This document shows, in pieces, positions 3 through 56,108 of a DNA stretch of 64,000 nucleotides. The notes beneath the pieces are model-generated. The model saw only the letters and a list, made by a program, of their open reading frames with translations. It ran no database searches and was not told the origin of the DNA. The stretch spans positions 1 to 64,000 of the forward strand of contig JAACZQ010000019.1 in assembly GCA_009996675.1 (NCBI GenBank), in the 5' to 3' direction. Position 1 is the stretch's first letter. Each line of letters begins with the position of its first letter. The DNA is from Chitinophagaceae bacterium (GTDB lineage: Bacteria; Bacteroidota; Bacteroidia; Chitinophagales; Chitinophagaceae). The translations under genes and the position numbers were made by a program.

Positions 3-1337
3 AATCATGCAGAAGGACGTTTCTCTTTGTGGAAAACAGTGCTCGAACCTTTTGAAGCACCCAAAACCGAACGTATTGCCGGCGCCGATGGTTTTGGCGA
101 CTATGCAGAGGGAGGCGACAAATCCCTGGTACTGTTTAATGGCAATATCTTCAAACTCAACCTCGACGCCAATAAAGTAGATCCGGTAAATATCAGCTAC
201 ACTTTCCGTCGCAACTTACAGGCAGAATTCACCCAAATCTTCCAGGAAGCCTGGGCGCAGCTGGATGAAAATTTCTACGACGAAAAATTCCATGGCATCG
301 ACTGGCGCGCTACCCGCAAACGTTTTGAAGCCTACCTGCCCATGCTCAATACCCGTGCCGACCTGCGCATCTTATTAAACGATATGCTGGGTGAATTGAA
401 CTCTTCTCACCAGGGCTTTAACACTTTTGGTGATGACGAAAATGTAAGTCTATCCAACAGAACCATGGAAACGGGTATTCTCTTCGACAACAATAACCCC
501 TACCTGGTAAAATCTGTGATTGAAGGCAGTAATGCCGATAAAGCCGGTATTGATATCAAACCCGGTGATATATTGGTGAAAGTGAATGATGAGACTGTTG
601 ATACACAGACAGACAGAAACTACTATTTCAGCAAACCATCATTGGATGGCGAGATCAGACTTGGTTTTATGCGTAATGGTCAGCCCTATACCGTCAAGAT
701 TCATCCACAATCTTCAATTGGTGCTTTGTTGCAGGACGATTGGATCCGCACCAACCAGGAAAGGGTTGATACCAAGACCAATAACCGGGTGGCTTATCAT
801 GCCATGAAAGATATGGGTACGGATGAACTGGATAAATTCCTGATCGACATGACCCAGGATTTCTACAAAAAAGATGCATTGATCCTGGATCTGCGATACA
901 ATACCGGTGGTAATGTACACGATGAGGTATTGCGTTTCCTGAGCCAGCGCTCCTACCTGCAATGGAAATACCGCGAGGGCAAATTAACACCGCAGTCCAA
1001 TTTCTCACCATCCGACAAACCCATTATCCTGCTGATCAATGAGCAATCATTGAGTGATGCAGAGATGACAGCACAGGGTTTCAAATCCCTGAAGCTGGGT
1101 AAGATTGTTGGTACGGGTACTTATCGCTGGATTATTTTTACCAGTGGCGCCAGCCTGGTGGATGGTTCCTTCATTCGCTTACCGGGATGGGGCTGTTATT
1201 CACTGGATGGCAAGGATATTGAAGTAACTGGTGTTGATCCCGATATTAAAGTTCCCATGAACTTTGAAGACCGCATCAACAAACGCGATCCACAGCTGGA
1301 CCGGGCTATTGAAGAAATCCTGAAACAGCTGAAATAA
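3..1337 (+). CDS. Tricorn-like S41 family peptidase, C-terminal part (5' truncated by window edge)
   Basis: Frame stays open upstream of the listed TTG start to the window edge (NHAEGRFSLWKTV...). PDZ-like segment and S41 core 'LRYNTGGNVHDEV...NEQSLSDAEM'. Confidence 0.85.
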   Translation, partial: NHAEGRFSLWKTVLEPFEAPKTERIAGADGFGDYAEGGDKSLVLFNGNIFKLNLDANKVDPVNISYTFRRNLQAEFTQIFQEAWAQLDENFYDEKFHGIDWRATRKRFEAYLPMLNTRADLRILLNDMLGELNSSHQGFNTFGDDENVSLSNRTMETGILFDNNNPYLVKSVIEGSNADKAGIDIKPGDILVKVNDETVDTQTDRNYYFSKPSLDGEIRLGFMRNGQPYTVKIHPQSSIGALLQDDWIRTNQERVDTKTNNRVAYHAMKDMGTDELDKFLIDMTQDFYKKDALILDLRYNTGGNVHDEVLRFLSQRSYLQWKYREGKLTPQSNFSPSDKPIILLINEQSLSDAEMTAQGFKSLKLGKIVGTGTYRWIIFTSGASLVDGSFIRLPGWGCYSLDGKDIEVTGVDPDIKVPMNFEDRINKRDPQLDRAIEEILKQLK

Positions 1338-1371
1338 ATTTCAGTAAATCCTGAATAGTTTGAAACTTTAT

Positions 1372-1397
1372 AACCGGGGCAGTTGCCCCGGTTTTTT
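1372..1397 (+). terminator. Rho-independent terminator after the S41 peptidase
   Basis: AACCGGGGCA-GT-TGCCCCGGTT followed by a T-run: 10-bp perfect stem. Confidence 0.9.
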
Positions 1398-1408
1398 ATT
1401 GTACAACT

Positions 1409-2110
1409 ATGGTAGCAACTTCCTTTTCCGCTCTATTCAAAGGTTATCCTTTTGAGCCCGTGGTTCCATTCAATCGCAATACCCAGCGTTTATGCCGTAT
1501 GGATTTTACCGAAACCAATTCAAGGCTCACCGCTGAAATGATCATGGATATTCAGGCATTCAGTGCATATGTAGAAGCGGAGATAAGTGCAGCAGGTGCT
1601 GTGTATGGCATTGGTGGCTATAATGAACACAGGACGCTGTATAGCCGCAGTGCTGTTTTCAACGGCAGTGCTGACGCAGCAGAGCCCCGTCGCCTGCACC
1701 TGGGTATTGATATCTGGGGTGCAGCCGGTACGCCTGTATCAGCTCCTATGAAAGGCACTGTACATAGTTTCGCATTCAATGACCAGTACGGCGATTATGG
1801 TGCAACCATTATCCTGGAACATACCTGGGAGGATCTGCATTTTCATAGTTTGTATGGCCACCTGTCTTTACGTGATCTCCATGGTTTATACGCAGGCAAA
1901 CCGGTTTCAGCCGGAGAAGTAATTGCCCATTTCGGGGAGTCAAACGAAAACGGCTACTGGCCGCCACATTTACATTTTCAATTAATCAGAGATATGCAGG
2001 AACTGAAAGGCGATTACCCGGGTGTTTGCCGGTACAGCGAACGGAAACAGTATCTGGAGAATTGTCCCGATCCGGCTTTTATGTTAAGTGCTCATCTGGG
2101 CAACTGGTAA
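1409..2110 (+). CDS. M23 family metallopeptidase (LytM-like)
   Basis: 'HLGIDIWGAAGTPVSAPMKGTVHS...HSLYGHLS...HFGESNENGYWPPHLHFQL': H-x3-D, HxH M23 motifs. Confidence 0.85.
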   Translation: MVATSFSALFKGYPFEPVVPFNRNTQRLCRMDFTETNSRLTAEMIMDIQAFSAYVEAEISAAGAVYGIGGYNEHRTLYSRSAVFNGSADAAEPRRLHLGIDIWGAAGTPVSAPMKGTVHSFAFNDQYGDYGATIILEHTWEDLHFHSLYGHLSLRDLHGLYAGKPVSAGEVIAHFGESNENGYWPPHLHFQLIRDMQELKGDYPGVCRYSERKQYLENCPDPAFMLSAHLGNW

Positions 2111-2506
2111 TTAAGCCTGGAGGGCAGACAGGATTTTGGCTTGCACCGCAGTCAGTTCATCGGCGCTCAGTTTAAGTTTACCGCGGGTAAAATTGAGATC
2201 ATCTGCTTCGTTGATGGGAACCAGGTGTATATGTGCATGAGGTACTTCCAATCCTACCACACTCATGCCGCAACGGTTGCAGTCAAATGCTTTTTCAATG
2301 GCTTTGGCAATGGGTTGCGCAAATACCATGATGTCCGCTAAATAATCTGCGGAGAGGTCAAAGAAGTTATCGGTTTCCGTTTTAGGAACTACCAGTACAT
2401 GCCCTTCCACAAGCGGGAATATATCCAGGAAAGCATAAAAGCGTTCGTTTTCTGCAATCTTATAAGAAGGGATTTCTCCGGCGATGATTTTGGAAAAGAT
2501 GGTCAT
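2111..2506 (-). CDS. HIT family protein
   Basis: 'MTIFSKIIAGEIPSYKIAE...VPHAHIHLVPI' histidine triad. Confidence 0.93.
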   Translation of the reverse strand: MTIFSKIIAGEIPSYKIAENERFYAFLDIFPLVEGHVLVVPKTETDNFFDLSADYLADIMVFAQPIAKAIEKAFDCNRCGMSVVGLEVPHAHIHLVPINEADDLNFTRGKLKLSADELTAVQAKILSALQA

Positions 2507-2516
2507 GGTTATTGTA

Positions 2517-2548
2517 TAAAAAAAGTTTCCGCCTTGCGGGCGGAAACA
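2517..2548 (-). terminator. Rho-independent terminator of greA
   Basis: Minus strand GTTTCCGCC-CGCA-AGGCGGAAAC then T7, just downstream of the greA stop. Confidence 0.85.
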
Positions 2549-2553
2549 GGTAA

Positions 2554-3027
2554 TTAAATAGAGATATCGTCGATGGAAAATTTAATGGTTCCATTGGGGG
2601 CCTGCACTTCGGCAATTTCTCCGATGGTTTTACCCATCAGGCCTTTACCAATGGGTGAGCTGGCGGAAATTTTACCAGCTTTCAGATCTGCTTCCTTTTC
2701 TCCAACAATCTGATAAGTAACCGTTTTTTTAGTGGCCACATTGGTAATGGTCACCCTGGTAAGAATGGTTACTTTACTGGTATCAATATCACTGGTATCT
2801 ACAATCTTGGCATTGGCAATAGCACCTTCCAGCTGCTTGATTTTGGCCTCAAGCATGCCTTGAGCCTCTTTGGCCGCATCGTATTCAGCGTTCTCCTTCA
2901 GGTCGCCCTTCTCGCGTGCTTCGGCAATGGCCCGGGATGCTGCAGGACGATCAACAGACTTCATCTTCTGCAGCTCTTCACGCATCTTCTCGAATGTCTC
3001 CTTTGTAACATACATGTTCTGACTCAT
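2554..3027 (-). CDS. greA: Transcription elongation factor GreA
   Basis: 157 aa with GreA coiled-coil 'REKGDLKENAEYDAAKEAQ' and C-terminal 'SPIGKGLMGKTIGEI'. Confidence 0.95.
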   Translation of the reverse strand: MSQNMYVTKETFEKMREELQKMKSVDRPAASRAIAEAREKGDLKENAEYDAAKEAQGMLEAKIKQLEGAIANAKIVDTSDIDTSKVTILTRVTITNVATKKTVTYQIVGEKEADLKAGKISASSPIGKGLMGKTIGEIAEVQAPNGTIKFSIDDISI

Positions 3028-3048
3028 ACCAATTTGGTTTAAAAAGGG

Positions 3049-3085
3049 TAAAAAAAATACAACGCCACATTTGACTGCAGCGTTG
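3049..3085 (-). promoter_or_regulatory. Candidate leader attenuator (intrinsic-terminator-like hairpin) in greA 5' leader
   Basis: Minus strand CAACGCTGCA-GTCAAA-TGTGGCGTTG (10-bp stem, 2 G-U) then TATTTTTTTT, between a -7-like box and the greA start codon. Confidence 0.6.
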
Positions 3086-3102
3086 CATAGTTGATCATTT
3101 GA

Positions 3103-3110
3103 TCAAAGAT
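3103..3110 (-). promoter_or_regulatory. Candidate greA promoter -7 element TATCTTTG
   Basis: Matches Bacteroidota TAnnTTTG; no good -33 TTTG seen. Confidence 0.4.
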
Positions 3111-3191
3111 AGTAAATTCTCCAGATATATCTTAGTATCCGGCCCGTTTTTATTAGGGAAATAGGGCTATTTTCAGCTTATAAACCAATCC

Positions 3192-3890
3192 ATGCTCGGA
3201 ATTCTTTTTTTAATACTGATTTCTGCCATTTTACTCTGGTTAACCGAACGAAAACCATTAACCGTATTGGGTATTACCCCCAGCATAAAACGATGTATGC
3301 AGCTTTGTACCGGCCTGTTAATCACTGGATTACTCTGTACAGGCTACCATTTACTGCTGGCCTCGCTGGTGAAGGCGCATTGGGTAATCGTACCCTTTCC
3401 GGGTATCGGTAAATTAGTGTCGGGCATGGGCTGGGTACTGCGTTCGGTACTGTTTGAAGAACTGATTTTCCGCGGTGCGGTCCTGTATTTACTCATTCAA
3501 AAACTGGGGCCCCGCAAAGCTGTATGGATGGCTGCTATCGGCTTTGGTATTTACCATTGGTTTTCCTACCAGTTATGGTCACAACCCGTTGCCATGTTGT
3601 ACGTGCTGCTGATCACCGGTGCCGCCGGCTGGGGCTTTGCCTATGCTTTCCAGCAAACCCGCGCTCTCTACCTGCCCATTGGATTACACCTGGGCTGGAA
3701 CCTTGTTCACATCATCGTATTTGCACAGGGGTCCATCGGCGCTTTTTTCTGGAAAATAAATGACCCTACACTACATAAAACAAACGAATGGCTACCCACC
3801 CTTGTACTATTTTTGTACCAGCTCTCCGTTATTCCTGTCGCCGTATGGTTGTATTGTTCACGCCTCCGCAAAAAAAATAAACCGGCCTAA
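3192..3890 (+). CDS. CPBP family intramembrane glutamic endopeptidase
   Basis: '[16 protein letters not shown]' (EExxxR) and 'PIGLHLGWN' motifs in a multi-TM protein. Confidence 0.85.
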
Positions 3891-4816
3891 GCAATACCCA
3901 GTTTATCCAGGACTATTTTAGCCATCAGGTAATAGGCTTCGTGACTGTATCCGGCAATATGCGGCGTGATGAGTACATTCGGTTGTTGCAATAACCATTG
4001 CAACTGCTCCTGTTCTGTATGGGTATATGTAGCCAGTTGTTCATTCTCCAGTACATCCAGGGCCGCCCCTTTAACCAACCCTTTTTGCAAGGCTTCTATG
4101 AGTGCTGCTGTATCGGTTACTTTACCACGACAGGTACTGAGGAAATATGGCTTCCTTTCCAGTGACTGGAAAAAAGCATGCCCGGCATAATGTCTGGTTT
4201 CATCGTTCAATGGTAAATGCAGACTGATTACGTCTGCATACCTGCACAATTGCTCTGGTGCAGCTTCACGTACATAATCATTGGCAAAACCGGATTTGTA
4301 TTTATCGTGTGCCAGTACGGTTACCCCGAAAGGGGCCAATAAACGGGCAAAAGCGCTGCCGGTATGACCATAACCAATAATGCCCACTGTTTTACCCGAT
4401 AACTCATCACCACGATTGGCATCACGGATCCATTGACCCGCACGCACTTCATTATAACTGGAAGGTATCTTACGCATCAAACCCAATAATATACCCAAAG
4501 CATGTTCCCCTACAGCATTGCGGTTGCCTTCCGGACTGCTTTCACATCGTATCCCTTTGGCCCGCGCATACGGCAGATCAATCAGCTCCATGCCGCTGCC
4601 CAGGCGGCCAATCCATTGCAAAGTTTTGGCCTTATCCAGCAGTGTGCTGTCTACTTTAATGCGTGTAGTAATAATGAGGCCGGTGGCTTCCGGTATCTGC
4701 TGCAAGAGTTCATCATAAGTAATGGCTGGTTGATACGATACTGCATAACCAGCCCGCTCCAGGCGCTCAACCAGGTATTCGTGTACTTTAGCTGTAACAA
4801 TAACTGTTGCTTTCAA
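3887..4816 (-). CDS. D-isomer-specific 2-hydroxyacid dehydrogenase
   Basis: '[19 protein letters not shown]' Rossmann motif; '[10 protein letters not shown]'; 'TPHIAG'. Confidence 0.88.
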
Positions 4817-4820
4817 ATCC

Positions 4821-5576
4821 TCATTTCATTTTAAAAGTAAGTGCGGCAAAATCTGCCACTGATAATTGCTCAGCCCGCTTGCTGAATATTTCTTCCTGCA
4901 GGGTTTCACTGTTAAACATGCCTTTTAACGGATTACGCAGCATTTTTCTTCTTTGTCCAAATGCCGCTTTCACCAATGCAAAAAATGCTTTCTCTGTCCG
5001 GACCGCATATTCCGTATCCCTTCTCCGCAAACGGATCACGCCACTCATAACTTTCGGTGGCGGGTTAAAACTTTCGGGAGGCACGTCAAACAAATAGTCT
5101 ACATCGTAATAAGCCTGCACCAGCACACTCAGTATTCCATAATCTTTGGATCCCGGACCTGAAGCTACCCGATCGGCCACTTCTTTCTGGAACATGCCAA
5201 TCATTACCGGTACACTGTTTTTCCATTCCAGTATACGAAACAATATTTGAGAGGAAATGTTGTAAGGGAAATTACCCACGACCATAAAGGGCGTTTCAAA
5301 TGGCTTCGCCACATCCAATATACTGTTGTGTATGAGCTTGCCTTTGATAACGGGGTATGTATGTTCGAGGTACTGCACTTTTTCCGCATCCAGTTCCACC
5401 GCCTTAAAATCCAAACCGGGCAGCTGAAGCAGGTATTTGGTAAGAGCACCACCACCCGGGCCTACTTCCAGCAACTGCCGGGGCATATCTTCGCTGATGG
5501 CCTGCACAATCCGTTCGCAAACCGATTCATCTTTCAGGAAATGCTGACCCAGCGATTTTTTAAGGGTGTATTGCAT
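4821..5576 (-). CDS. rsmA: 16S rRNA (adenine1518-N6/adenine1519-N6)-dimethyltransferase RsmA/KsgA
   Basis: '[14 protein letters not shown]', '[14 protein letters not shown]', '[14 protein letters not shown]'. Confidence 0.95.
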
Positions 5577-5580
5577 AGGG

Positions 5581-5588
5581 CAAAGGTA
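5581..5588 (-). promoter_or_regulatory. Candidate rsmA -7 element TACCTTTG
   Basis: TAnnTTTG consensus only about 5 nt upstream of the rsmA ATG; would imply a leaderless or very short-leader mRNA. Confidence 0.35.
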
Positions 5589-5710
5589 TGGGTTGGTTTT
5601 TAGTTTGGGGTTTTTAGGTGGGGCAGGGGTAGGTTTACGGTTGGGGATTCGGAGTTATAGGTTGATTACGGGAACTTGTGGCTTGCAGCTTACTCCTCAC
5701 TACTGACTAC

Positions 5711-5735
5711 TCACTATTCACGCTTCACTATTCAC
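5711..5735. repeat. Direct repeat TCACTATTCAC x2 in intergenic tract
   Basis: TCACTATTCAC at 5711-5721 and 5725-5735, preceded by degenerate CTCACTACTGACTAC. Confidence 0.6.
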
Positions 5736-5772
5736 CCATTCTCCGTACTTTTATCCTCTAAAACACAGCCTG

Positions 5773-6864
5773 ATGAGTCATGAAATGGCCAAGCCGGTTA
5801 TCGGTTTCTCTTGTGGTGATCTGAATGGTATTGGGATGGAGCTGATCCTTAAAACCCTGGGTGATCACCGCCTGCTGGATTTTTGTACCCCTGTGGTTTT
5901 CGCCAGCAATAAGAGCATTAATTTTTACCGTAAAAGTCTGCCGGATGCCAATTTCAACTATACCAGCGGCCGCGACTTCAGCCGGCTGAACCCCAAGCAG
6001 GTGAATATCTACAACTGCTGGGAAGAAGAAGTAGCCATCACACCCGGTCAACTGAATGAGATTGGTGGCAAATATGGCCGCATCTCTCTGGAACAGGCCG
6101 CGCAGGCGTTGAAAGACGGTCATATTCATGGCCTGGTAACAGCTCCCATTCACAAGAAAAATGTGTATTCTGAGGAATTCCCCTATACAGGTCATACCCC
6201 TTTCCTGAAAGCCCTGTTCGGTGCGCAGGACGTTCTCATGTTCATGGTGGCGGAAAATATCCGCGTAGGTCTGGTTACTGAACACCTTACCATTGCAGAA
6301 GTAGCCAAGCACATTACCCGTGAAGCCATCCTGAGCAAGCTGAAGATCATGCACAATAGCCTGCAGAAAGATTTTGGTATCGACAAACCCCGTATTGCGG
6401 TACTCGGACTGAACCCACATGCCGGTGATGAGGGGTTAATTGGCAATGAAGAAGAGACCATCATCAAACCCGCTGTCAAAGATGCCCGCCACCAGATGCT
6501 GGCTTTTGGTCCGTACAGCGCCGATGCATTTTTCGCACGCGGTCAGCATGAACGTTTTGATGGCGTATTGGCCATGTACCACGATCAGGGCCTGATTCCC
6601 TTTAAATCACTGGCCATTGGTGAAGGCGTGAACTATACCGCCGGCTTAAGCGCGGTACGCACCAGTCCCGACCATGGTACTGCATTTGATATCGCCGGCA
6701 AGGGCAAAGCAGATCATACTTCTTTTCTGGCTGCCACTTTTGAATGCATTGAGATCATTCGCAAACGCATGGGTTATAGCGAAATGCGTCAGAATCCATT
6801 GCGCAAGATGAGTGCGCGTATGCTGGCCAATGCCGTGGATGAGAAAATTGAAGAAACCGAATAA
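5773..6864 (+). CDS. pdxA: 4-hydroxythreonine-4-phosphate dehydrogenase PdxA
   Basis: 'LVTAPIHKKNV', 'LGLNPHAGDEGLIG', 'YHDQGLIPFK', 'RTSPDHGTAFDIAGKG'. Confidence 0.95.
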   Translation: MSHEMAKPVIGFSCGDLNGIGMELILKTLGDHRLLDFCTPVVFASNKSINFYRKSLPDANFNYTSGRDFSRLNPKQVNIYNCWEEEVAITPGQLNEIGGKYGRISLEQAAQALKDGHIHGLVTAPIHKKNVYSEEFPYTGHTPFLKALFGAQDVLMFMVAENIRVGLVTEHLTIAEVAKHITREAILSKLKIMHNSLQKDFGIDKPRIAVLGLNPHAGDEGLIGNEEETIIKPAVKDARHQMLAFGPYSADAFFARGQHERFDGVLAMYHDQGLIPFKSLAIGEGVNYTAGLSAVRTSPDHGTAFDIAGKGKADHTSFLAATFECIEIIRKRMGYSEMRQNPLRKMSARMLANAVDEKIEETE

Positions 6865-48881: not shown

Positions 48882-50159
48882 CTAAAAACTTATCGTAAAA
48901 CTATGGTAAGCACCATCAAAGTGGTAAGTGATAATCCATCCGTACCGGTCGGTAATTTTTTTAACAATCGCCAGCCCAAGTCCGCTTCCCTGCTCCTGAT
49001 CATTGGCTCGGAAAAAACGGTTAAACAGGCGGCCCTTATCCAATTCGGTCAAAGGACCTGTATTTTGCACCAGGAGCCGCTGATGCTGTAACTGCACCCG
49101 GATAATTCCGCCACTGGCATTATGTTTCAGTGCATTAGACAAAAGGTTTCGCAGCAAAACCTCCAGCAGTACCTGGTTGGCCTGTACGCTTATGCTTTCC
49201 CACTCCTGTTTTTCAATAGTAATATTTTTTTCCCTGGCCAGTTCTTCCAGAAAATCCAGTTGCTTCTCCAGCAAAACAGCCAGATTATGGCTACCCGTGT
49301 CTTGATACTGGTCATATTCCAGGCGCGATAATAACAGCAGATTCTTATTCAAATAATGGAGCCGGTAGATCGTTTCACTCAGCTTCGACAATTCTGCAAG
49401 TTGCTCCTGAGTGAGTTTTTCATCTTGTATAAGATTATCCAGTCGCCCCTGCAATACAGCCAGTGGCGTTTGTAATTCATGTGCCGCATTTTCAACAAAC
49501 TCTTTCTGATCCCTGTAAATGGTCACATTCCGTTCAATAAGCTTTTCCGATACTTCCTTCAACCGGTGAAATTCATCAATATCGCTTTCAGGCAGATCAG
49601 GCATTTCCGGTTTATCAACTTTAAATCCTTCCAAAGCCGACAGCATCGCATAATAGGGCTTCCAAAGTTTACGGGTTACCCGTCCGGATAAAATCATCAT
49701 ACCAACAATCAGCAGGATCAAAATAGACACATACAGGGAAACGATATTGTACACCATATCCATATTATCCAACAGATTTTCCCTTGCATAAAATAATTTT
49801 CGTGTACCGTTGATCTGTAAAGGTGCATATAACTCCCGGTAGGGTTCCTGGTCGCCATCCATGATATTAAGATGACTGGCATTTGAAAACCAGGGCTTTG
49901 TTATGCTGCCGGTATCTGGTAATATCTGCTGGTCACGGTTCCACTCGTTCCACTTTTCAATATCACTGATCTGAAAACCAGGAAGTGTATACCGTTCAAA
50001 CTCATGTAATCGCAGTAACAATGCTTCCTCTGCTTCTGCCCTGTGCCAGTGTTCAGTGAAGACATAAAAAACAGGAGCTGTTACCATCAGCACCAGCAAT
50101 GAAAAAACCAGGTATTTCCGAAGGGTGGTATGTAATAACTGTTTTCTCATTCCGTCCAT
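48882..50159 (-). CDS. Sensor histidine kinase
   Basis: Two TM helices, H-box 'EFVENAAHELQTPLAVLQGRL', N-box 'LLRNLLSNALKHN', G-box 'GSGLGLAIVKKI'. Confidence 0.93.
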   Translation of the reverse strand: MDGMRKQLLHTTLRKYLVFSLLVLMVTAPVFYVFTEHWHRAEAEEALLLRLHEFERYTLPGFQISDIEKWNEWNRDQQILPDTGSITKPWFSNASHLNIMDGDQEPYRELYAPLQINGTRKLFYARENLLDNMDMVYNIVSLYVSILILLIVGMMILSGRVTRKLWKPYYAMLSALEGFKVDKPEMPDLPESDIDEFHRLKEVSEKLIERNVTIYRDQKEFVENAAHELQTPLAVLQGRLDNLIQDEKLTQEQLAELSKLSETIYRLHYLNKNLLLLSRLEYDQYQDTGSHNLAVLLEKQLDFLEELAREKNITIEKQEWESISVQANQVLLEVLLRNLLSNALKHNASGGIIRVQLQHQRLLVQNTGPLTELDKGRLFNRFFRANDQEQGSGLGLAIVKKITDRYGWIITYHFDGAYHSFTISF

Positions 50160-50821
50160 TTATACCCAATGCCATAAACAGTTTTAATGTAGTCGGGGGC
50201 ACCGGCCTGTAATAATTTCTTTTTGAGGTTTTTGATATGCGCATAAATGAAGTCAAAACTAATCATCATATCCGCCATATCACCAGATAAATGTTCTGCA
50301 ATTGCGTTTTTGGATAAAACTCTTTTGCTGTTGCCTACCAGGTAAAGGAGCAGGTCAAACTCTTTTCTTGTTAAAAGCACTGCTTTATCATCCACAAATA
50401 CTTCTTTGCGCAACAAATCGATATTGATCTCGTTAAAGCGGATGATATTATTGCCAGAAAATTTATGCCGTCTGATAATAGCCTGTACCCTGGCCATGAG
50501 TTCCGGCAGGTGAAAGGGTTTGGTGAGGTAATCATCAGCACCTGCATGTAACCCTTCCAGTTTGGTGTCTAATGTATCACGGGCGGAAATAATCAGTACC
50601 CCATCAGTTTTCTGCATAGCACGAAGTTCCCTGAGCAGGGTTATACCATCACCATCTGCAAGCATCAGGTCCAGCAGTATACAATCGTATTCATAAATAC
50701 TTAGCTTATCCAGTGCATTTTTGATATCGTGCACACATTCACATACAAAACCATTACCCGACAGGTAGGTATGCATGGCTTCTGCCAGCTCTCTTTCATC
50801 TTCAATAATGAGCAGCTTCAC
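50147..50821 (-). CDS. OmpR-family response regulator
   Basis: 'MKLLIIEDERELAEAM...DCILLDLMLADGDG', winged-helix C-terminus ending 'YIKTVYGIGYKWTE'. Confidence 0.95.
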   Translation of the reverse strand: MKLLIIEDERELAEAMHTYLSGNGFVCECVHDIKNALDKLSIYEYDCILLDLMLADGDGITLLRELRAMQKTDGVLIISARDTLDTKLEGLHAGADDYLTKPFHLPELMARVQAIIRRHKFSGNNIIRFNEINIDLLRKEVFVDDKAVLLTRKEFDLLLYLVGNSKRVLSKNAIAEHLSGDMADMMISFDFIYAHIKNLKKKLLQAGAPDYIKTVYGIGYKWTE

Positions 50822-51017: not shown

Positions 51018-53459
51018 CTATCCGCCCAGGCCTGCTGCTCCTTGAGTCCGCTTCCGCTCCTCTTCAGCACCGCCGGGTGTTTGCCTGGCAGCCTTTACCT
51101 TACTGTTACCAAAACGATAACCGAACTGTATCCTGAACTGGCGACTGTCCTGACTGCCATTGGCCTGTAACGACTGCCCAGCGAAATTGCCTTCGGCCGT
51201 CCATTTCAGGGTTTTGAAAAGATCACTAATACTTAGTTTCAGGTTAACACGACCAGCCAGCCACTGTTTCTGAATACCGGCATCCATGCTCCAGATTGAT
51301 CCTGCCCGCAGGCTTCCCTGCCAGACAGATGGACTATTATAAAAACCGCTCAGCTCTGCCGTCCATGTTTTGGCAAACCGTAAGCCATGTTGCATAAACA
51401 GACTGAAAGTTGTTCTGTCCAGCGAGATCTTTCTGCCCGGACCATCATCTAAACGATAGCTGGCGTAATAGGTGTGTACATTGGTAAACAGGCTATAGGG
51501 GCCGTATTGCAGCGGATAGCTGATATTCAATCCCAGCATATCCTGCCGGGCAATATTGCGACTGTACAGATATCCTTTCACACCGGCCGCAGTATCTGCA
51601 ACCTGACCAAACATATCAGTTGTACGACTATAAATGAGTGTTGTATTCAACCTGAATCCGTAGGTATGTGTCAGGCTGATAGATTGTGCATACTGCGGTT
51701 TCAGATCAATGCTTCCTTTGTGAAAAGTATATTCATTGATACGATATTCAAACGGATTGAGGTCCTTGTAAACAGGGCGATCAATACGGCGGCTGTATGC
51801 CAGCGTCCATTGGCTTTTAGAACCGGGTGCCATGGTTACAGAGAGACTGGGAAACAGGTCAAAATAGTTGCGTGAAAAACGACTGGCCAGTTCAGGTGCT
51901 GCTGTGGAATTATGATAGGTAAACAGATCACCCTTAATATTGGTGTATTCCGCACGCACACCAGCCTGCCATGCCCAGTTACGATTATTAAAGCTCCATT
52001 GTGCGTAAGATGCATGAACCTGTTCACGATACGCAAAAGCATTGCTGTGGTGATGATCGAAAGTTTTATCCGACTGATCCACTGCATACTGGTGGAAATT
52101 ATTATCGGTCTGTACAAATGAACTCTTCCCGCCAAAAGACCATTTATGCTTTCCGGCCTGTTTTTCATAATCGGCCTTAAGGGTATAGATGCGTATATCG
52201 GAAGGTGTTTCCAGTGCATAATTACGGGTATACAACAGTTGTTGGTTCACGGGGTCTACAAACCTGTTTGGCTGATCCTGCTTGTTGCGAATATTCAGAT
52301 CAACCCGGTCAGCCTGCATATTCAAGCTATTACCTGCAGAATCGCGGTATTGGTAATTGAGACTATAAACCCACTGATCCTGTTGCTGGGCAGATGCATT
52401 CACCGATTGCATAATAGCCCTGGTAGTTCCGGAAGGAACATATACAATGGGTGATGACCCATTATTATTGGCTTCAGCATCGCTCAGGTTACCGGTAATG
52501 GTAAGCCCCAGCACAGATCTACTGGAAAGTGTAAAATCAGCACCAGCTTTTAACAGGTGTACATCCCCCGACTGTTTGATATCATTCTGCTGATAAAAAG
52601 CGGTATCACCGATTTGCCTGTTGAGGCGAAACTTATTATGCGAAGCATTATGCTGAAAACTGTAATCACTGAACAGGTTTATACCACGGTTGCGGTAGTT
52701 CAGGGAAAAAGACCCATTATAGCGCACACGTGGCGTTACTGCCATACCAGCCTGTACACTACCATTCACACCAAAAGATTTGTTCTTTTTAAGGCGGATA
52801 TGAATAATACCTCCCGAACCTGATGCATCATAAATCGCACCGGGCTGGTTAAGCAGTTCAATACTTTCAATCTGATCGGCAGGAATGGATTTCAGGTAGC
52901 CAACCAACTGTTCGGCAGTAAGTACCACCACACGGTTGTCTACCAAAACCTGCACGCCTGGTTTCCCCTGCATCAGCAGGTTATCGTCTTTATCAACAGT
53001 AATACCCGGCATTTTACGCAATACTTCCAGTGCATGTGCCGAGCTTCTGTGCATGGTACCTGCCACTTGTATAATTGTTTTAGCCGCTTTAACATCAATC
53101 AGTTTTTTCTGCGTTTTTACCGTTACAGCCTGGAGGTTATTGGCTTTAGCGGCCAGCAACAGTTCATGCAGTTGTTTTTCTCCGGTTGTCATTTCAAAGA
53201 TTTCTGTAAACGTACCCACATAACCGATATGGGTTATTTTAAGCAGGTAGTGACCCGGCTTTACATCTTTAAAAAAGTAGTTGCCGTCTTTACTGAGTAT
53301 CGACATAACAGGCAGTGAGTCTTTCGCCTGCAATAATAATACGGTAGCATCGGAAACAGGTTTGCCCTGTTCGTCTGTCAGTTTACCCTTCAAGCTCTGC
53401 GCCATAACCGGTGCAGTGAAGAGTAAAGACAATAAAATAGTGTTCAATATTTTTTTCAT
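51018..53459 (-). CDS. Outer-membrane beta-barrel protein (PF14905-type), paralogue of 45962-48382
   Basis: 'ALEVLRKMPGITVDKDDNLLMQGKPGVQVLVDNRVVVLTAEQLVGYLKSIPADQIESIELLNQPGAIYDASGSGGIIHIRLKKN'. Confidence 0.9.
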   Translation of the reverse strand: MKKILNTILLSLLFTAPVMAQSLKGKLTDEQGKPVSDATVLLLQAKDSLPVMSILSKDGNYFFKDVKPGHYLLKITHIGYVGTFTEIFEMTTGEKQLHELLLAAKANNLQAVTVKTQKKLIDVKAAKTIIQVAGTMHRSSAHALEVLRKMPGITVDKDDNLLMQGKPGVQVLVDNRVVVLTAEQLVGYLKSIPADQIESIELLNQPGAIYDASGSGGIIHIRLKKNKSFGVNGSVQAGMAVTPRVRYNGSFSLNYRNRGINLFSDYSFQHNASHNKFRLNRQIGDTAFYQQNDIKQSGDVHLLKAGADFTLSSRSVLGLTITGNLSDAEANNNGSSPIVYVPSGTTRAIMQSVNASAQQQDQWVYSLNYQYRDSAGNSLNMQADRVDLNIRNKQDQPNRFVDPVNQQLLYTRNYALETPSDIRIYTLKADYEKQAGKHKWSFGGKSSFVQTDNNFHQYAVDQSDKTFDHHHSNAFAYREQVHASYAQWSFNNRNWAWQAGVRAEYTNIKGDLFTYHNSTAAPELASRFSRNYFDLFPSLSVTMAPGSKSQWTLAYSRRIDRPVYKDLNPFEYRINEYTFHKGSIDLKPQYAQSISLTHTYGFRLNTTLIYSRTTDMFGQVADTAAGVKGYLYSRNIARQDMLGLNISYPLQYGPYSLFTNVHTYYASYRLDDGPGRKISLDRTTFSLFMQHGLRFAKTWTAELSGFYNSPSVWQGSLRAGSIWSMDAGIQKQWLAGRVNLKLSISDLFKTLKWTAEGNFAGQSLQANGSQDSRQFRIQFGYRFGNSKVKAARQTPGGAEEERKRTQGAAGLGG

Positions 53460-53523: not shown

Positions 53524-54177
53524 TTATAAATGAACGCTGCTCTTTATCGGTACAATGGATGGTGTACAACAATAAACAGATCGTTTCTTCAGATAAGGGC
53601 TGTGGCAATTCCAGCATGGTAAAACTTTACCCCGATCCGTGGGCATACCCATTTCATGGGCCAGCATTTTCTCAGTCAATCGCATATACCGCGCTTCCAG
53701 GGCCAGTTGTCCTTCTTTATTTAGTCCCAATTGCCCCAGGAAACGAAAACCGGCTTTGCGGATACCTTGTTGGGAAGATTTATTTTCAGGTGCATGGATG
53801 ATCCAATACTGTTTTGCCCGGCCACGCTGATCATTAATAATTGCCTGCAATAAGGCAGGATAAATCCCCCGGCCTCTGTATGCTTCCAGGGTTCGGAAGT
53901 TCCACAGATAACGATTACCATTGGGTAATATAAAATCGTGATTCAATTCACCGATACGTGCCCTTCCACTGGCCACCCATCCAAAAGCAACCGGAATACC
54001 TTGCAGGTAAGCAACGTACGCTTCGTGATCATTTGCCAAACGGTGTATGATTTCCGACTCAGGAACCTGTACCAATGCAGATAACATACTTACGTCTCCT
54101 GAATTGGTAATCACAAGTTCGTCTGGTTGCTGAATATCGGGTAATACCTGGTTACTGGTGAGTGTATAGAGCGCCAT
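53524..54177 (-). CDS. GNAT family N-acetyltransferase with Cys-containing C-terminal tail
   Basis: 'WNFRTLEAYRGRGIYPALLQAIINDQRGRAKQYWIIHAPENKSSQQGIRKAGFRFLG'; tail 'PCWNCHSPYLKKRSVYCC'. Confidence 0.75.
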   Translation of the reverse strand: MALYTLTSNQVLPDIQQPDELVITNSGDVSMLSALVQVPESEIIHRLANDHEAYVAYLQGIPVAFGWVASGRARIGELNHDFILPNGNRYLWNFRTLEAYRGRGIYPALLQAIINDQRGRAKQYWIIHAPENKSSQQGIRKAGFRFLGQLGLNKEGQLALEARYMRLTEKMLAHEMGMPTDRGKVLPCWNCHSPYLKKRSVYCCTPSIVPIKSSVHL

Positions 54178-54230
54178 AACAGCGATTTAAAAGTTGGAAA
54201 ATTGGGAGGGGATGCCCCCTCCCGGTTTGT

Positions 54231-54350
54231 TTATGCACAGCCTCCGCAACCGCAGGTACAGCCCTTGCCAGGACAATTATCGCCACAGTTACATTTTGCC
54301 GGTGTTGTTGCAGCATCGCCGCAGATACATTTTTTGGTGGTTGTTTCCAT
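54231..54350 (-). CDS. Small cysteine-rich metallothionein-like protein (39 aa), absent from the supplied ORF track
   Basis: Manual translation METTTKKCICGDAATTPAKCNCGDNCPGKGCTCGCGGCA; 9 Cys in 39 aa with CxC/CxxxC spacing; TACTTTTG -7-like box 41 bp upstream. Confidence 0.75.
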   Translation of the reverse strand: METTTKKCICGDAATTPAKCNCGDNCPGKGCTCGCGGCA

Positions 54351-54390
54351 TTGTTTTAATTTTTTTGTGTGATTAATAATTTGATGATGC

Positions 54391-54398
54391 AAAAGTAT
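54391..54398 (-). promoter_or_regulatory. Candidate -7 element TACTTTTG for the Cys-rich gene
   Basis: Matches TAnnTTTG; no convincing -33. Confidence 0.45.
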
Positions 54399-54466
54399 TC
54401 CGGGGAAACGGGGCGATCTTTACACGATGAAGGGCTCTTTGTACATCATTCCCGGAAACAACCGAT

Positions 54467-55258
54467 ATGCTTTCAAAACCGTCCATACATATTAGTAGTA
54501 CCCGCATGCTGATGGTAGCCCCGCACCGGGATTTTGCCGTGCACCAGCATGCCGTATTACAAGTAACTTTTGCCCTGGATGAGGAACCGTTTGAAGTATG
54601 GACCGAGGCTACGGGCTGGGCGAGTACAACAGGCGTAATCATAGATGCCAATATTCCACATGCCCTGCGGGTACAACAGGGATGGCAGGCTACTACCTGT
54701 ATCATTCCGCAAACTGCACCTGCCAAATGGTTAAAAGAGTCGGTATTACAGGAAGCCCCCGTATTATTATTAAATGGCACTGAGTTTAACCCGGTAAAAG
54801 AAGACCTGCTGAACCTGAGCAGGGCCGTATTACCGGATGGCGAGACTTTTGACGAACTGACCAACCGTATTTATAATTGTCTGCTGAAAAACAAATACCT
54901 GTTTTATCCGATGGATCAGCGCATCCGGTCAGTCTTATTATATATACAGGAGCATATTACAGAAGGGTTGTCGGCCGCAGAACTGGCTGCGCATATCCAT
55001 CTGTCAGAAAACCGCTTCCTGCACCTTTTCAAGGAAAAAATGGGTATACCGGTCAGACAATATATCGTATGGCAGCGCATGGCCACAGCATTTGGCTTTT
55101 TTTTAGCGGGGCGCTCCCTCAAAGAAGCCGCCTATGAATCCGGATTCTCCGATCCTGCTCATTTTACCAGAAGCTTCGTACAGATCAATGGCGTACAGCC
55201 ATCGGCCTACGCCCCCCTGAAGGATCATTTCGCTTTCCGCTACTTCCCGGAAGCCTGA
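54467..55258 (+). CDS. AraC family transcriptional regulator
   Basis: 'GLSAAELAAHIHLSENRFLHLFKEKMGIPVRQYIVWQRMATAFGFFLAGRSLKEAAYESGFSDPAHFTRSFVQINGVQPSAY'. Confidence 0.92.
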   Translation: MLSKPSIHISSTRMLMVAPHRDFAVHQHAVLQVTFALDEEPFEVWTEATGWASTTGVIIDANIPHALRVQQGWQATTCIIPQTAPAKWLKESVLQEAPVLLLNGTEFNPVKEDLLNLSRAVLPDGETFDELTNRIYNCLLKNKYLFYPMDQRIRSVLLYIQEHITEGLSAAELAAHIHLSENRFLHLFKEKMGIPVRQYIVWQRMATAFGFFLAGRSLKEAAYESGFSDPAHFTRSFVQINGVQPSAYAPLKDHFAFRYFPEA

Positions 55259-55535: not shown

Positions 55536-56108
55536 ATGAATAATTTACCAACCTTATACATCCGTAATATGGTTTGCCGGCGCTGCCTGCTTACTGTAAG
55601 TCAACTCCTGCAAGAACATCAGCTTCATACCCTGCAGATAGAACTGGGCAGGGTAAAGCTGGCTCATCACCCATCCCACGATCAAATAGAGGCTTTTAAA
55701 AAAGCCCTGCTCGACATTGGTCTTGAAGTGATTGAAAATCGCAACCAGAGAATCATTGAAGGTATTAAGCAGGTGATTCAGGAAGATATAATGGCCGGAC
55801 TTGATAACAGACAAATGAAACTATCGGCTAAAATAGCAGAAAGGTTACACTATGAATTCAGCTACCTGAGTGATATATTTTCTTCAGTGGAAGGGATCAC
55901 CATTGAGAAATATTTTATCCGCCAAAGAGTAGAAAGGGTTAAAGAACTCATCAGTTATGATGAATATTCATTGAGCCAGATCGCTGATCTGACAGGCTTC
56001 AGCAGTGTTCATCACCTCTCAACCCAATTCAAAAAAATTACAGGTATTACACCATCGCAATACAAACAATCACAATCGGCCAGAACTCCACTGGATATGG
56101 TTGCCTGA
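55536..56108 (+). CDS. HMA-like domain fused to AraC-type HTH
   Basis: N-terminal 'LYIRNMVCRRCLLTVSQLLQ' (CxxC, HMA-like fold pattern) and 'YSLSQIADLTGFSSVHHLSTQFKKITGITPSQYK'. Confidence 0.75.
   Translation: MNNLPTLYIRNMVCRRCLLTVSQLLQEHQLHTLQIELGRVKLAHHPSHDQIEAFKKALLDIGLEVIENRNQRIIEGIKQVIQEDIMAGLDNRQMKLSAKIAERLHYEFSYLSDIFSSVEGITIEKYFIRQRVERVKELISYDEYSLSQIADLTGFSSVHHLSTQFKKITGITPSQYKQSQSARTPLDMVA

Follow-up and report, generated by a model that had tools for sequence, protein, structure and literature searches.

Bacterial metallothioneins have been placed in the cyanobacteria, pseudomonads, other proteobacteria and firmicutes, together with the mycobacterial protein MymT (PMC7558416). MymT of Mycobacterium tuberculosis is encoded by a small, formerly unannotated Cys-rich open reading frame (ORF), is needed for copper resistance, and has a predicted capacity of up to six Cu(I) ions (PMC7558416, citing Gold et al. 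2008). Our literature searches found no metallothionein described for the Bacteroidota. Within a 64,000-nucleotide stretch of a Chitinophagaceae contig (GenBank assembly GCA_009996675.1, contig JAACZQ010000019.1), hereafter the window, lies a small gene whose product we consider, at a probability of roughly 80%, to be a metallothionein that binds Cu(I) and belongs to a Bacteroidota copper regulon under the control of HMA-AraC proteins.

54231–54350, minus strand: metallothionein-like gene, 39 aa with 9 Cys (basis: translation, relatives, dN/dS)

Re-translation of this ORF yields METTTKKCICGDAATTPAKCNCGDNCPGKGCTCGCGGCA followed by a stop codon, an exact match to the minus-strand frame of 39 residues and nine cysteines given in a preliminary description of the window, which had also proposed that it is an overlooked gene. 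The ORF is a real gene. The frame recurs across other genera and families together with its Cys pattern, promoter, and neighbours; at least 21 further loci, spread over several Bacteroidota families, conserve the ORF and Cys pattern, and synonymous changes far outnumber non-synonymous ones. For pairs that differ in protein and for which the ratio is estimable, dN/dS lies between 0.09 and 0.26, indicating purifying selection. Since the invariant Cys columns use TGC about as often as TGT while dN/dS is low, it is the amino-acid pattern that selection keeps. Like metallothioneins in kind, the peptide is small, high in Cys, and built on CxC and CxxC motifs, and these Cys motifs are kept in 22 loci.

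A one-sequence search of a phylum sample, drawn evenly from the larger group, returned a sole strong relative (E 3.4e-8) at L008, where another genus of the same family carries a close peptide copy amid the same neighbours. The remaining matches were weak, and Cys-rich readings at L009, L014, and L016 were rejected as relatives, being unlike the peptide. Scanning genome contigs with an alignment of the downstream GNAT acetyltransferase fetched 17 loci; in 10 of them (L021–L026 and L028–L031) the peptide gene, which shares its strand with the GNAT, ends about 60–79 nt ahead of the GNAT start, and the distance is about 115 nt in L032 and about 570 nt in L034. A conserved Cys/Gly core, CxCGxxC....CxCGC, defines the family in 22 loci including the window, and members added by profile searches in other families of the class include a second peptide type, CxNPxCxCxxCxCGxxC. 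Carriers include Chitinophaga, Flavihumibacter, Ilyomonas, Cesiribacter, and Rhodocytophaga. Family members have 25 to 48 residues, lengths that sit under the usual gene-calling cut-offs. The window peptide has zero matches in Pfam, NCBIfam, and PHROGs, as do the relatives tested against Pfam and NCBIfam; searches of PDB sequences, run with two of the peptides and with one alignment, returned no metallothionein, and neither viral contigs queried with a 62-aa extension of the peptide nor plasmids searched by tblastn with the L069 peptide returned anything. Within the libraries and literature searched, the family is new as a sequence family and in its phylum, and known in kind.

The spread of the family is patchy. 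It is present in 12 of 349 genomes sampled from the window's own family and in 4 of 45 from the order of genome G831, and the window's linked GNAT is confined to one genome among 61 from its genus (0 of the 60 others sampled). In base composition the window is similar to a second contig region of its own genome (C10) and, less so, to a third (C2). The patchiness could stem from gain by transfer, from repeated loss, or from a mis-binned contig, and the gene-family conclusion is independent of which of them holds.

Upstream of the peptide gene lie two further elements.

54390–54397, minus strand: −7 promoter box TACTTTTG, of the Bacteroidota TAnnTTTG type (basis: promoter alignment)
54417–54457, minus strand: direct-repeat operator, two half-sites with a 21-bp period, a short way upstream of the −7 box (basis: 21-promoter alignment)

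The promoter-like box previously noted ahead of the ORF is thus present, its first base 47 nt upstream of the ATG, and the promoter recurs at related loci; the 21 promoters were aligned with the TAnnTTTG box as anchor, so that conservation of the box is partly by construction. In these 21 promoters, half-sites of the form AATTnTRTAAA ... TGTAACA are repeated with a 21-bp period at a fixed distance from the box, and the downstream half-site occupies the position of the −33 element. An activator site overlapping the place of the −33 element is what would be expected for an AraC-type activator. The repeat is also visible at the later-found relatives L154 and L156, each with an HMA-AraC gene directly upstream.

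A weight matrix built from 20 peptide promoters was scanned over 12 other carrier-genome regions without a known peptide and returned 8 sites at or above 15 bits, against a mean of 0.45 (maximum 3 in 60) for column-permuted matrices; the regions had been picked for HMA-AraC genes or pattern matches, making the scan enriched rather than blind, and which genes the sites precede was not part of that choice. Sites at or above 15 bits stand directly before copA ATPase genes in L134 and L141. The other sites of this strength precede ORFs for CopZ-like HMA proteins of 69–70 aa in L131, L134, and L139, and lie directly before an HMA-AraC gene in L136 and beside one in L142; the L132 site is not ahead of any called gene. 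Weaker sites are found upstream of copA: one of 14.6 bits in L135, which is from the window's own genome, and one of 10.8 bits in L131. Leave-one-out scores fell below 3 bits for 2 of the 20 promoters, and the L154 promoter fits the matrix poorly. An IUPAC operator pattern with two mismatches was dropped as too loose, its backwards control also matching often. At L136 (C2 of the window's own genome), an RND efflux operon (224–6513) adjoins the HMA-AraC gene, with operator-like sites before both; being of the multidrug type, it was set aside as copper evidence.

Two regulator genes are encoded on the opposite strand.

55536–56108, plus strand: HMA-AraC regulator, with an N-terminal copper-chaperone-like domain (MVCRRC) and an AraC DNA-binding domain; proposed activator
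54467–55258, plus strand: divergent AraC-type regulator (HTH_18/HTH_AraC), recurring in several type-1 loci

An AraC-type regulator with an N-terminal M-V-C-x-R-C domain adjoins most peptide copies, and a profile of this domain searched against the PDB finds the metal-binding domains of copper ATPases best (E 3.8e-17) and CopZ at E 1e-4. There are 36 HMA-AraC matches in 13 carrier genomes, and 12 of the 13 have one no more than 3.4 kb from the peptide, a sample that is not fully independent because some of these genomes were reached via peptides first seen near HMA-AraC genes; with about three copies in 3–7 Mb, we estimate that proximity by chance would arise in less than 1% of cases per genome. 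No HMA-AraC gene was seen within the stretch read at L025, L035, or the short contig L022, and in genome G647 (L061) it is on a different contig from the peptide. The divergent second AraC protein could be the actual regulator of the window gene. At L132:8771–9331 and L133:3057–3617, beside unrelated small genes, lie HMA-AraC paralogues whose metal motif is degenerate (MVSTRCK, MVSLRCK).

The copper-translocating model TIGR01511 is passed by six of seven neighbouring ATPases scanned, the seventh, cut by the stretch, falling just short. HMA domains, like P1B-ATPases, can act on Ag(I) as well. At L058, genes for arsR, an arsC-like phosphatase, an arsM-like methyltransferase, and an aquaporin (1134–3430) adjoin the peptide–GNAT locus. 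Cys-only metallothioneins often bind Zn and Cd, and it is this general knowledge, along with the first three of the L058 genes, that would favour a metallothionein for Zn/Cd, or for a broad range of soft metals including As(III), in place of copper. We regard such a specificity as unlikely: the regulator domain, the linked TIGR01511 ATPases, the copZ-like ORFs, and the multicopper oxidases are of copper type, and arsenic-type genes were met in one locus only among the loci read. We infer copper specifically because the regulator, the operator, and the family point there.

Multicopper oxidase genes lie near the peptide gene in six loci (L023, L058, L033, L034, L070/L153, and L155), a proximity that would suit a copper chaperone or donor which loads the neighbouring oxidase or passes copper to CopA and is not a sink. 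Such a role is nonetheless improbable, given that the window locus and several others have no multicopper oxidase nearby and that separate CopZ-like chaperones stand under the same operator. The oxidases at L023:1654–3006 and L058:4524–5900 start without an apparent signal peptide by eye (e.g., MKPQNNIVEYTLEASEFNW), which suggests that these two enzymes may be cytosolic.

Downstream of the peptide gene, the locus continues on the same strand.

54204–54223, minus strand: hairpin between the peptide stop codon and the acetyltransferase, likely a terminator or attenuator
53524–54177, minus strand: GNAT acetyltransferase with a Cys-rich C-terminal tail (CWNC..SPYLKKR..CC) (basis: Pfam PF00583, alignment, AlphaFold2, Foldseek)
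51018–53459, minus strand: outer-membrane beta-barrel protein (PF14905), which follows the acetyltransferase in several type-1 loci

A hairpin lies 3′ of the peptide gene in every locus but L032 (21 of 22), and because it follows the stop codon the peptide is probably the main product, with the GNAT made by read-through. The acetyltransferase gene is fixed downstream of the peptide in Chitinophagaceae, and its tail is conserved in the GNAT alignment as CWNC..SPYLK...CCC......C. The AlphaFold2 model shows the GNAT fold confidently, apart from an end of low confidence, and Foldseek with this model retrieved generic GNATs only, the top matches covering several acceptor types. Adjoining the outer-membrane protein of the locus are a two-component histidine kinase and response regulator (window 48882–50821). 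The Cys-rich RiPP-type precursor offered as an alternative in the preliminary description, which here would be modified by the neighbouring GNAT, draws on the succession of small Cys-rich ORF and acetyltransferase in many loci but is very improbable, as no typical maturase or exporter was recognised among the listed neighbours at the loci read (family models having been run on part of the neighbours), the peptide has no leader/core division, the 12-kb stretches of L062, L067, L069, and L070 contain it but no GNAT, and the operator is copper-type.

The metallothionein-like reading of the peptide, by comparison, is supported by its conservation, its composition, and a copper-gene context with a common operator. 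As a copper metallothionein, the small cytosolic peptide would bind Cu(I) through cysteine-thiolate clusters, and it probably takes up excess copper inside the cell. On a rise in copper, the HMA-AraC regulator would bind the 21-bp direct repeat and, with the downstream half-site at the place of the −33 element, activate transcription from the TAnnTTTG box. The same operator would drive copA, the copZ-like chaperones, and related genes, the peptide serving as the buffering arm of the copper response. Because of the hairpin past the stop codon, the peptide would predominate, and the acetyltransferase and the outer-membrane protein would be reached by read-through at a lower level.

The common operator makes for a directly testable Bacteroidota copper regulon comprising a regulator, a binding site, and target genes, and the family raises the concrete question of the role of the linked acetyltransferase. 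One speculative and doubtful answer is that the peptide, a multicopper oxidase with no apparent signal peptide, and the Cys-tailed GNAT form one cytosolic copper-handling pathway under the HMA-AraC copper regulon, in which the GNAT would acetylate the metallothionein (or sense its metal state) and so adjust its turnover or how it binds metal. If true, this would amount to an enzyme-modified bacterial metallothionein.

Among known systems, MymT would share the proposed role of the peptide, a likeness by analogy of function; the two differ in phylum, and in that the peptide has a proposed AraC-type HMA regulator and a direct-repeat operator. SmtA/BmtA (PF02069) are likewise small, Cys-rich, and presumed to sequester metal. 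However, PF02069 gave 0 matches at E≤10 against the peptide and the relatives tested, and none of 14 carrier genomes gave a match above its cut-off, which one control genome did exceed in the same search; judged by this profile, the peptide falls outside the SmtA/BmtA family. The ingredients of the SmtA zinc-finger part (His and Cys) are also absent from the window peptide, which has no His or aromatic residue, and a single His is found only in two aligned relatives (L023 and L057). The proposed regulon resembles the CopA/CopZ regulons in placing an efflux ATPase, a chaperone, and a buffer under one metal switch. Here, the buffer would be a metallothionein from a family absent in the libraries searched, and the predicted switch is an HMA-AraC activator acting through a 21-bp direct repeat that replaces the −33 element.
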